From: an uncultured Candidatus Actinomarina sp.
Lineage (GTDB): Bacteria > Actinomycetota > Acidimicrobiia > Actinomarinales > Actinomarinaceae
DNA length: 64,000 nucleotides
Direction of reading: 5' to 3'
Assembly: GCA_902533795.1 (NCBI GenBank)
Contig: CACAND010000003.1
Coordinates: forward strand, 24,617 to 88,616
The notes under the pieces: model-generated
What the model was told of the DNA's origin: nothing
Databases searched by the model: none
The model's input: only the letters and a program-made list of their open reading frames with translations
Made by a program: the position numbers and the translations under genes
In this document: positions 43,767-49,075 of the stretch, in pieces
Position numbering within the stretch: the stretch's first letter is position 1
Layout: each line of letters starts with the position of its first letter

Positions 43767-43843
43767 GGGTGACCGACGGGATTTGAACCCGCGACCTCCT
43801 GGACCACAACCAGGCGCTCTAACCAAACTGAGCTACGATCACC
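43767..43843 (-). tRNA. tRNA-His(GTG)
   Basis: Anticodon loop TTGTGGT in CCTGG/CCAGG stem; C73. Confidence 0.94.
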
Positions 43844-43847
43844 TCGG

Positions 43848-43921
43848 CGCTCTCGATAGGACTCGAACCTATAACCTACAGATTAGAAGTCTGTTGCTCT
43901 ATCCATTTGAGCTACGAGAGC
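43848..43921 (-). tRNA. tRNA-Arg(TCT)
   Basis: GCTCTCGTAGCTCAAATGG...CTTCTAA. Confidence 0.95.
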
Positions 43922-43927
43922 CTCTCG

Positions 43928-43998
43928 AGCGGGTGAAGGGAATCGAACCCTCATAGCCAGCTTGGAAGGCTGGAGCTTTGCCATTAAGCTACACCCGC
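43928..43998 (-). tRNA. tRNA-Gly(TCC)
   Basis: GCGGGTGTAGCTTAATGG...CTTCCAA. Confidence 0.95.
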
Positions 43999-44003
43999 GC
44001 TAG

Positions 44004-44078
44004 TCGGGCTGGTGAGATTCGAACTCACGACCTCCTGCTCCCAAAGCAGGCGCTCTAGCCAAGCTGAGCCACAGCCCG
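44004..44078 (-). tRNA. tRNA-Pro(TGG)
   Basis: CGGGCTGTGGCTCAGCTTGG...TTTGGGA. Confidence 0.95.
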
Positions 44079-44173
44079 CACGTCTAATTATTGTTCCATG
44101 ATAACGCTTTTATGGAAACAATAAATCAAAAAATTTATAGTTAAGTATTATTAGTTAAGTTAATCTGTAAAAA

Positions 44174-44246
44174 GGGTCGCTAGCTCAATTGGCAGAGCAA
44201 CGGACTCTTAATCCGCAGGTTCGGGGTTCAAGTCCCCGGCGACCCA
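44174..44246 (+). tRNA. tRNA-Lys(CTT)
   Basis: GGGTCGCTAGCTCAATTGG...CTCTTAA. Confidence 0.95.
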
Positions 44247-44257
44247 CGCGACATTTA

Positions 44258-44340
44258 GCGGATGTGGCGGAACTGGTAGACGCGCTAGATTTAGGATCTA
44301 GTGAGCTTTGCTCGTGGAGGTTCGAGTCCTCTCATCCGCA
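44258..44340 (+). tRNA. tRNA-Leu(TAG)
   Basis: GCGGATGTGGCGGAACTGG...TTTAGGA, long variable arm. Confidence 0.95.
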
Positions 44341-44347
44341 CTATAAA

Positions 44348-44836
44348 TTAGAAAATTTGAACAACGAGTTCAGTAGAGGATGCTGTAGCCAAAAGTTTAC
44401 CGTTCATATCTTTAAGTTCTCCAGATACAAAAATGACTTTTCTACCTAATTTATCAATCTTTCCAGTAGCTACTATCTCACCGGTATCAACTGTGATCTG
44501 GCTCAAATAATTTACTTTGATATCTGTTGTTAAAGCTATGAATCCTTTATCTAAATTGCATTGTGCTGAGATGCTATTGCAGGAATCTAAAAGCGTTGCT
44601 GCAAGACCACCATGCACACTACCAATTGGGTTATAGTGAAATTCCTCAGCCTTGCAATAAAAAGAAGTGTGACCATCATCATCTATTTCAATTTTTGTAA
44701 ATCCCATTAATGAGCCGATACCAGTTGAACCAGGCGGGTACTCTCTCAAGAATTTTCGACGGTCTTCCTTATCTAAATTTAATAATGTTTCAGCAACATC
44801 CTTTGGTGTTTCCCATGAGTGAGTTCTTTCATTCAT
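44348..44836 (-). CDS. PaaI-family thioesterase
   Basis: Hotdog motif [21 protein letters not shown]. Confidence 0.88.
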
Positions 44837-46805: not shown

Positions 46806-48368
46806 TTACGATGAACTTTCCATAAAATAATAATTAAAACCATCACACAAGGCATTCCAAGATGCGTTGATAATATTTTCATGCACACCGATTGTGCTCC
46901 AAATCATCTCACCATCCGTAAACTCAACTAGTACTCTTGTTTTTGCTTCCGTACCATCTGATGAATCAATAATTCTTACTTTATAATCAGTTAATTTAAT
47001 TTTATCTACATCGGGATAATTATTTTTTAAGGCAGATTTCAATGCTTTATTCAATGCATCAACAGGTCCTACTCCCTCACCAGTTGTTACAAATCTATTT
47101 TCTTCAACAGTAATCTTGCAAACTGCTTCAGAAACTACATTCTGTGAATTTCTTCTTTCGGAATAAACTCGAAAACTCTCAAAAGAAAAAAATTCTGGTT
47201 CTTCACCTTTTATTTTTTTCATCAATAAATATAAAGATGCATCTGCAGCCTCATATTGAAAACCTTCATATTCTAAGTTTTGTACTTGTTCAATCAAATT
47301 TTTTGCTTCATCGTTTGAAAACTCAATATTAAATTCTTTTGCTTTTGTAATGACGCTTGCTCTTCCTGCTAATTCAGAAACTGTAGTTCTTGTGTAGTTT
47401 CCTACCTGGCTTGCATTGATATGCTCATATAATGTATTGTCTTTTGACATACCTGATGCGTGCAATCCAGCCTTATGAGTAAATGCAGATGACCCAACAT
47501 ATGGATGTCTTGAATCTATTGCAATATTTACAAGTTCTGCAATGTGATTAGCAATAGGAGTTAATTTTTCTAGAGACTTTTCAGGAACTGTTTCTAAGTT
47601 CATCTTAAGTGATAGGTTTGGTAACAAAGTACATAAATCAGCATTTCCTGTTCTCTCCCCGTAACCGTTCATTGTTCCTTGTACGTGCTTTACACCTAAA
47701 TTTACTGCTGCCAAAGAATTGGTGACAGCACAGCCATTGTCATTTTGAAAATGGACACCAAATTCTTGATCTGGATAATTTTCAATTATTGGATATAAAA
47801 GTTCGGTAACTTCATGTGGAAGAGTTCCTCCGTTTGTATCACAAAAAATGAAGCACTCAACACCTTCATTTACAACTGAATCAAGAATCTTTAGAGTTAC
47901 TTCCGCATTCTCTTTTAACCCATCAAAAAAATGTTCTGCATCAAAAAATACTTTTCGATTATTTTCCTTCAAGAATCTGACAGTATCTACTGCCATTGAG
48001 ATAGCATTGTCTACATCGGTCTCTAAAGCTTTAGTAATGTGCAGATTTGAGGATTTTCCTACAATGCAAACATATTCAGTTTGTGAGTCAATTAATGCTT
48101 GAACTTGTGGATCTTCTTCAACTTTGGTATTTAATTTACGTGTAGATCCAAAACTAACTAATTTTGCATTGTTTAAATTCAAATCTTTCTTTGCAGTATC
48201 AAAAAACTCTTTCTCTTTTGGTGATGCTCCAGGCCAACCACCCTCGATAAAATCAACACCCAGTTCATCAATTAGCTTTGCAATAGCTAATTTATCTTTA
48301 ACAGACGGTGATATCCCTTCTTGCTGAAAGCCATCCCTTAGTGTCGTATCAAATATGTCTATCTTCAT
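46806..48368 (-). CDS. cimA: Citramalate synthase
   Basis: MKIDIFDTTLRDGFQQEGISPSVKDKLAIAKLIDELGVDFIEGGWPGASPKEKEFF; start ATG 48368 with GGAAGAAG upstream. Confidence 0.93.
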   Translation of the reverse strand: MKIDIFDTTLRDGFQQEGISPSVKDKLAIAKLIDELGVDFIEGGWPGASPKEKEFFDTAKKDLNLNNAKLVSFGSTRKLNTKVEEDPQVQALIDSQTEYVCIVGKSSNLHITKALETDVDNAISMAVDTVRFLKENNRKVFFDAEHFFDGLKENAEVTLKILDSVVNEGVECFIFCDTNGGTLPHEVTELLYPIIENYPDQEFGVHFQNDNGCAVTNSLAAVNLGVKHVQGTMNGYGERTGNADLCTLLPNLSLKMNLETVPEKSLEKLTPIANHIAELVNIAIDSRHPYVGSSAFTHKAGLHASGMSKDNTLYEHINASQVGNYTRTTVSELAGRASVITKAKEFNIEFSNDEAKNLIEQVQNLEYEGFQYEAADASLYLLMKKIKGEEPEFFSFESFRVYSERRNSQNVVSEAVCKITVEENRFVTTGEGVGPVDALNKALKSALKNNYPDVDKIKLTDYKVRIIDSSDGTEAKTRVLVEFTDGEMIWSTIGVHENIINASWNALCDGFNYYFMESSS

Positions 48369-48380
48369 TCTTCTTCTTCC

Positions 48381-48406
48381 AAAAAAAAACCCCTGCAACG
48401 CAAGGG
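48381..48406 (-). terminator. Intrinsic terminator inside cimA leader (attenuator)
   Basis: Minus-strand CCCTTGC-GTT-GCAGGGG-TTTTTTTTT. Confidence 0.85.
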
Positions 48407-48431
48407 TAACAACGAAAAGTTCGTTGTCCTT
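48402..48431 (-). promoter_or_regulatory. Candidate antiterminator hairpin of cimA leader
   Basis: AAGG.ACAACGAA pairs with TTCGTTGT..CCTT, consuming 5' arm of the terminator. Confidence 0.65.
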
Positions 48432-48456
48432 AAATAATAATTATGAAATTAATCAT
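48430..48456 (-). CDS. Leader peptide MINFIIII (5 Ile of 8 residues)
   Basis: ATG ATT AAT TTC ATA ATT ATT ATT TAA directly upstream of the competing hairpins. Confidence 0.7.
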   Translation of the reverse strand: MINFIIII

Positions 48457-48462
48457 GAATTC

Positions 48463-48490
48463 ATAATAGTTTCGTTTATAAGCTTGTCTA
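48463..48490 (-). promoter_or_regulatory. Candidate promoter of cimA leader
   Basis: -35 TAGACA, 16-bp spacer, -10 TATTAT, then 6 nt to leader ATG. Confidence 0.55.
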
Positions 48491-48502: not shown

Positions 48503-49075
48503 TTATTCTGTAAAAGTATCTGTTAACAAATCACGCATTTTTTTAGCAGCAATTTTTCTATGACTTATGTCAGTCTTTTCTTCAAAACTTAACTCTGCAA
48601 GGGTTGATCCGTCTAATTCGAAAATAGGATCGTATCCAAAACCATTGTTACCTCGGGGAGACGTAGTTATTTGACCATTTAATGTTCCTTCAGTATCTAA
48701 CCTGATTTCTCCATCAAAAAAATATATGACCGTTTTAAAAAAAGCTTTTCTATTTTCTTCATTTGATAAATTTTTCAACATCTTTTCGATGTTTTCTTGG
48801 TCTGAAGCATTCTCCCCTGCATATCGAGCAGTTGAGACTCCAGGTAGATTTCCTAATGCTTTTACAAATAGTCCTGAATCATCAGAAAGGACAGGAATGT
48901 TATGCTTAAGAAAAATTTCTTCTGATTTTTTTTGGGCGTTCCCTAAGATTGTATCTTTATCTTCAACAACATCTTCAAGGTCATCATCGAATATTATTTC
49001 AAATTTTGAATCTTTAAAAATCTCTTTTATTTCTTTGAACTTGTTCTTATTTTTACTAGCAAATAAGATTTTCAT
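48503..49075 (-). CDS. rdgB: dITP/XTP pyrophosphatase
   Basis: FASKNKNKFKEIKEI, SDDSGLFV, GNNGFGYDPIF. Confidence 0.96.
   Translation of the reverse strand: MKILFASKNKNKFKEIKEIFKDSKFEIIFDDDLEDVVEDKDTILGNAQKKSEEIFLKHNIPVLSDDSGLFVKALGNLPGVSTARYAGENASDQENIEKMLKNLSNEENRKAFFKTVIYFFDGEIRLDTEGTLNGQITTSPRGNNGFGYDPIFELDGSTLAELSFEEKTDISHRKIAAKKMRDLLTDTFTE

Follow-up and report, generated by a model that had tools for sequence, protein, structure and literature searches.

A candidate isoleucine-responsive attenuator with a stop-anchored hairpin upstream of citramalate synthase in Candidatus Actinomarina and other Acidimicrobiia

The leader upstream of cimA

In the window, the whole 64,000-nucleotide stretch of Candidatus Actinomarina DNA that was analyzed, the citramalate synthase gene cimA is preceded by a compact leader whose features are collected in Table 1. 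Our data confirmed the placement of cimA downstream and rdgB upstream of this leader in the sequence-only reading, as both products score above the cut-offs of TIGR00977 and TIGR00042, respectively (for the cimA product, 622.9 bits against a curated cut-off of 450, E = 3e-187). The claimed order from the promoter to the cimA ATG was also correct, every element being found at its place on the minus strand. The two promoter hexamers are separated by a 16-bp spacer, and the control isoleucine codons of the leader peptide MINFIIII are ATA ATT ATT ATT. The terminator core, CCCTTGC-GTT-GCAGGGG at 48406-48390, is followed by T9 at 48389-48381, and GGAAGAAGAAGA lies between the T tract and the cimA ATG at 48368, all on the minus strand. 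Shuffled versions of the leader fold less stably than the leader itself (z = -5.7), which, together with the retention of the arrangement in every Actinomarina cimA locus read, argues for more than chance. Elsewhere in the window, six tRNA genes on both strands are clustered at 43768-44340; an open reading frame listed at 44189-44449 overlaps two tRNA genes and is probably spurious.

Table 1. Positions of the leader features and the flanking genes in the window
Feature	Position	Strand	Basis or remark
Leader promoter, -35 TAGACA	48485..48490	minus	sequence
Leader promoter, -10 TATTAT	48463..48468	minus	sequence; 6 nt 5' of leader ATG
Leader peptide ORF, MINFIIII and stop	48430..48456	minus	ATG ATT AAT TTC ATA ATT ATT ATT TAA
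Leader stop codon TAA	48430..48432	minus	at foot of hairpin P1
Hairpin P1, GACAACGAA-CTT-TTCGTTGTT	48408..48428	minus	fold, arm coevolution and covariation
Intrinsic terminator (predicted), ACCCTTGC-GTT-GCAGGGGT plus T9	48381..48407	minus	fold and stem covariation
Purine-rich ribosome-binding region of cimA	48369..48380	minus	sequence; directly 3' of T tract
cimA, citramalate synthase, putative regulated gene	46806..48368	minus	TIGR00977
rdgB, upstream gene, outside the element	48503..49075	minus	TIGR00042, above cut-off

The conservation of the isoleucine-rich uORF, which had been proposed as a check, was borne out across the class, where the uORF, its isoleucine run, the stop codon, the hairpins and the promoter are all kept. 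With an isoleucine run just before the stop codon, the element was present at 27/27 other Actinomarina cimA loci scanned and, in very different sequence and G+C content, at 31 of the 60 cimA loci of other Acidimicrobiia, these counts being of loci and not of independent events. In every readable Actinomarina cimA upstream region, the order was constant: promoter, a peptide such as MKKIIIII, MINFIIII or MMNIIIIN, stop codon, P1 and terminator. The same order recurred in 46 further nonredundant Acidimicrobiia cimA leaders of wholly different, G+C-rich sequence, with peptides such as MRPYDLGIIIG, MTTNPTWTIIIIE and MSIHTGIIID. The underlying protein search matched 37 of the 42 genomes of the family, some of them only via a leuA-like paralog. 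The remaining 29/60 loci of other Acidimicrobiia were not scored as carrying the element directly upstream of cimA; at some of these, it precedes a leuB-led operon that includes or precedes cimA. The upstream sequence differs in more distant relatives, so that rdgB is no fixed neighbor of the leader. Acidimicrobiia-like cimA loci also occur in records titled Armatimonadetes, Acidobacteria and Bifidobacterium breve, probably because these assemblies are mislabeled or misbinned.

The geometry of the leader is as constant as its order. The overlap of the leader stop codon with the first hairpin arm, noted from the window alone, proved to be conserved: in all 68 of 68 nonredundant cimA leaders, the 5' arm of P1 starts 0 to 5 nt downstream of the first stop-codon base, most commonly at the third stop-codon base in the high-G+C leaders, and P1 ends 0 to 7 nt before the terminator. 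The -35 element is (T)TAGACA at the same place in Actinomarina relatives and TTGAC in high-G+C relatives, where it is followed by CATACT; in most of the 68 leaders, a -10 element, TAATAT or CATACT, ends 6 to 11 nt before the leader ATG. No Shine-Dalgarno sequence is visible before the ATG in the leaders with a promoter at this distance. So short an interval suggests a leaderless or nearly leaderless uORF, with transcription probably starting on or next to the leader ATG.

Control codons and the pathway of the downstream gene

When 198 genomes of the class were scanned with a covariance model trained on the cimA leaders, the element was found in 150 of them (E <= 0.05). Second matches, outside the training set, lay before ilvB (leader peptides MTTTSFVLILM and MTIADNLLVVLIT), before leuA (MTSTLTLLLLS) and before a leuB-led operon whose leader carries Ile/Val control codons; in some of those genomes, cimA follows the leuB leader at a distance of about 2 kb. 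By our reading of the sequence, the gene just 5' of cimA in related loci encodes a branched-chain aminotransferase. The leuB-led operon leaders contain isoleucine and valine and hardly any leucine, which suggests that this LeuB homolog serves the citramalate-isoleucine route.

A model trained on isoleucine runs is biased towards them, and a second collection of upstream regions was therefore assembled from protein searches alone. The cimA counts given above come from this collection; in it, a leucine run preceded leuA at 14/14 Acidimicrobiia loci (e.g., MTTAPTLLLLL) with a stop-anchored hairpin pair of the same kind, and a leucine or valine run preceded ilvB at 10/16 loci; a tryptophan-run element was found at 0/30 trpE loci and a histidine-run element at 0/30 hisD loci. 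The stop-anchored P1 and the short gap between P1 and terminator are similar in the leuA, ilvB and leuB leaders. The claimed fit of control codon to pathway extends beyond the window: cimA is matched by Ile, leuA by Leu and ilvB by Leu/Val, with nothing of the kind at the 30 loci each of trpE and hisD. In Actinomarina, ilvB carries the same attenuator-like element with a Leu/Val-rich leader, e.g., MKIIQNLNSLLVLVLI followed by the stop codon, and its leader ATG is preceded by TATAGT at 7 to 8 nt. No ilvB was found in the incomplete genome from which the window comes. Neither trpE nor hisD was found in any of the 13 Actinomarina genomes searched, which have kept the branched-chain genes; tryptophan and histidine auxotrophy, or very divergent genes, are possible explanations.

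In other families of the phylum, the covariance model found ilvB leaders that end in LVLI plus one residue, followed by the stop-anchored hairpin. The element is not universal in the phylum, since the same kind of scan detected it neither upstream of leuA in other actinobacterial classes nor at the 30 ilvB loci that score best across the phylum. Valine control codons in the G+C-rich ilvB and leuB leaders are often GTA. This codon is expected to be rare in G+C-rich genomes. GUA is marked as the regulatory codon in the ilvB1 leader of Mycobacterium tuberculosis (PMC13236596).

Hairpin structure and ribosome position

Both hairpins covary, as the proposed check had asked. When cognate arms were compared with arms swapped between genomes, the arms of P1 and those of the terminator were each found to coevolve (p = 0.0005 for either, 46 high-G+C leaders). 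A model-guided alignment comprising 88 distinct sequences had pairing in 93.9% of its cells, compared with 78.1% after shuffling, and changes on both sides in 161 cells, compared with 34 after shuffling; as this alignment was fitted to the structure, these figures are biased towards it, and the arm-swap test is independent of it. Among fifteen segment pairs whose cognate and swapped duplex energies were compared, none outside P1 and the terminator convincingly coevolves: weak p values of 0.008 to 0.015 in the small, closely related Actinomarina set were not reproduced in the 46 high-G+C leaders. An all-column covariation scan likewise gave no coherent helix beyond these two.

The minimum-energy fold of the window leader has P1 and the complete terminator side by side at -20.7 kcal/mol, and the two hairpins are thus not mutually exclusive. 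They coexist in the predicted folds of relatives' leaders, too. The proposed check by folding, which had looked for two exclusive structures, consequently returned one structure holding both hairpins.

What does change in the computed folds is P1 in response to the ribosome. With a ribosome on the first isoleucine codon, the probability of P1 is 0.96; on the last isoleucine codon, P1 is mostly open (0.16 to 0.35), and on the stop codon it is lost (0.00 to 0.01). Because P1 is anchored on the stop codon and the terminator abuts it, P1 reports whether the ribosome has reached the stop codon. The sequence-only reading had held that a ribosome at the stop codon blocks the first hairpin and that one stalled on isoleucine codons leaves it free; this stands for the computed folding of P1 and is not supported for a pairing antiterminator. 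The mean fold probability of the terminator is 0.91 to 0.98 in every ribosome state, so that the computation gives no effect of P1 on termination.

Taken together, comparisons at the sequence level establish the conserved layout, the covariation of both hairpins and the match of the control codons to the downstream gene's pathway, and they strongly support a putative isoleucine-responsive attenuator function of the cimA leader; of the original proposal, it is the exclusivity of the hairpins that has to be given up. The leader probably regulates cimA by ribosome-mediated transcription attenuation, with charged tRNA-Ile as the sensed signal. The switch itself is almost certainly real, and its last step is not as first proposed.

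The last step and its alternatives

In the model that we propose, RNA polymerase would begin on the leader ATG or beside it, and a ribosome would load on the uORF, which is probably leaderless. Under ample isoleucine, this ribosome would translate the whole isoleucine run and arrive at the stop codon, where P1 has its foot. By covering the 5' arm it would open P1, leaving the adjoining terminator to form and to end transcription. Under isoleucine shortage, a stall on the first isoleucine codons would leave P1 folded against the terminator, and transcription would continue into cimA. The direction of the response and termination itself we infer. The route from P1 to the terminator may be steric hindrance, pausing or weak basal competition. 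Our preferred reading, which we put forward tentatively, is that folded P1 disables the terminator sterically or kinetically and not by a base-pair switch: lying 0 to 7 nt away, it would impede the terminator stem in closing at the RNA exit channel. P1 may also pause the polymerase so that the ribosome catches up.

It is rather unlikely that such pausing is the whole role of P1, with the hairpin merely synchronizing the ribosome and starvation reaching the terminator by another route. The distance of P1 from the terminator would put a pause about 11 nt downstream of P1, in the 5' arm or loop of the terminator, and a pyrimidine-G step often occurs 10 to 12 nt after P1, a raw occurrence on which we do not rely. 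A pause by itself, however, gives no account of different outcomes in the two states.

The opposite wiring, in which P1 would act as a protector of the terminator, after the pattern of the classical trp leader, is less likely again. Here, a stall on the last control codons would open P1, as it does in the computed folds, and the freed 3' arm would pair with the 3' arm of the terminator, a duplex that averages about -8 kcal/mol in the high-G+C leaders. This pairing shows no coevolution (p = 0.14), however, and is far weaker than the terminator (-17.4), which still has a mean probability of 0.92 to 0.98 with P1 blocked. Moreover, the control codons lie before P1 and not inside it, and the stop codon is at the P1 foot.

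Slightly further down in probability, and improbable in our view, stands the reading originally offered, in which P1 is extended to an antiterminator that shares CCCTT with the terminator and so excludes it. The extension exists in the window: AAGG at 48431-48428 is able to pair with CCTT at 48405-48402 (4 bp, minus strand), and a truncated transcript folds at -10.0 kcal/mol. The 3-nt overlap between antiterminator and terminator reported to be functional in Corynebacterium glutamicum ilvBNC (PMC11857589) makes a small contribution of this pairing possible. The coexistence of the hairpins argues against exclusion, however, the extended stem reaching about -11.0 kcal/mol, and relatives have lost the extension (AAGAAC, AATGAC, AGTGG); the overlap is a feature of the window sequence and some relatives and not of the family. 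Forcing the terminator base to pair upstream costs a median of 7.5 to 9.5 kcal/mol, the stop-codon flank and the terminator base do not coevolve in the high-G+C leaders (p = 0.60 to 0.90), and upstream pairing gains more than 1 kcal/mol in just 24/68 leaders. A pairing-exclusive antiterminator was therefore rejected, no coherent helix beyond P1 and the terminator emerging from duplex swaps, the flank test, forced folds or the all-column scan.

A ligand- or protein-binding leader (T-box, riboswitch or ANTAR-type two-hairpin RNA) would also present two hairpins and a terminator, yet it is highly improbable, as the loops vary in length and sequence, the codons of the peptide follow the pathway, and Rfam gave no matching family: the window gave nothing but tRNAs at gathering scores, and models including T-box, ilvB-OMG and the Leu leader gave no relevant match at 20 related loci (E <= 1) or in the window leader (E <= 5). 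Chance, i.e., an ordinary rdgB terminator beside an isoleucine-rich ORF of A+T-rich DNA, where such codons are common, is barely worth considering given the retention of the element in G+C-rich relatives with different upstream sequence and control codons that match the pathway, with none found before trpE or hisD. Since the cimA frame is open upstream in the window (519 aa), frameshifting on hungry isoleucine codons into that frame was considered; it was rejected because several relatives have no upstream extension of the frame.

Relation to known leaders and meaning

Enterobacterial trp, his, leu and ilv attenuators have three structures whose pairing overlaps, namely protector, antiterminator and terminator. 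As proposed here, the position of the ribosome on control codons decides termination in them; the cimA leader differs in having two nonoverlapping hairpins, and no more were seen. Mycobacterial leaderless polycysteine uORFs have a run of control codons before the stop and no intrinsic terminator. The cimA uORF, predicted to be leaderless, has such a run before its stop as well, for a different amino acid and with a terminator. The leader shares with leader-peptide attenuators a run of end-product codons in a short uORF, a predicted intrinsic terminator with a covarying stem between uORF and structural gene, and an RNA structure, P1, whose predicted folding depends on ribosome position; an antiterminator that excludes the terminator by pairing was not found, and we thus file it as a variant of leader-peptide attenuation and not as a classical member.

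The closest logic is that of M. tuberculosis ilvB1NC, whose 166-nt leader has a branched-chain-rich uORF with LVVI and a terminator before the gene; in the published model, to whose description we liken ours, a ribosome at the stop codon masks the antiterminator and a stall on control codons frees it (PMC13236596). There, the target is ilvB1 and the hairpins are described as mutually exclusive (PMC13236596), whereas the leader described here would act on cimA, spans about 90 nt and has hairpins that do not exclude each other by pairing. Corynebacterium ilvBNC and ilvB-II have an Ile, Val, Leu leader peptide and a terminator hairpin, with pausing at the first hairpin proposed (PMC10272879, PMC11857589), and transcription of C. 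glutamicum ilvBNC starts one nucleotide from the leader ATG (PMC11857589). The cimA leader resembles ilvBNC in its predicted start near the leader ATG, its branched-chain leader peptide and its terminator hairpin. In ilvB-II, most of P1 lies within the uORF, and an overlapping antiterminator forms a third hairpin (PMC10272879, PMC11857589); here, by contrast, the uORF stops at the start of P1 and a third helix was not seen, which sets the leader outside ilvB-II.

Branched-chain leaders of ilvB and leuA are already known in other Actinobacteria (PMC1262725, PMC10272879): a Leu-run leader precedes leuA (the LEU element) and a branched-chain leader with a terminator precedes ilvB (PMC1262725), and both arrangements are shared with the leaders described here. 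A pseudoknot has been proposed for the LEU element, its base stem formed by the leucine codons and the leuA Shine-Dalgarno sequence; no cimA case was reported in that study, and no Acidimicrobiia were among its genomes (PMC1262725). Our literature search, which covered few subscription papers, found no report of a cimA attenuator or of the element in Acidimicrobiia.

The element may represent a class of two-hairpin attenuators without an overlapping antiterminator, in which a stop-anchored hairpin gates termination sterically and the module is reused with swapped codons, a reading that falls short of probable and that we offer with caution. On the same guarded terms, its hosts would be Acidimicrobiia and some other Actinomycetota, and its positions before cimA, leuA, ilvB and the leuB-led operon. 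That conserved hairpins do not compete by pairing raises the testable question of whether an abutting upstream hairpin, gated by a terminating ribosome, can control intrinsic termination. The finding would assign isoleucine-specific control at the transcript level to the citramalate route in streamlined ocean actinobacteria, where one compact module of uORF, stop-anchored hairpin and terminator appears to serve several branched-chain operons, with its codons changed to match.
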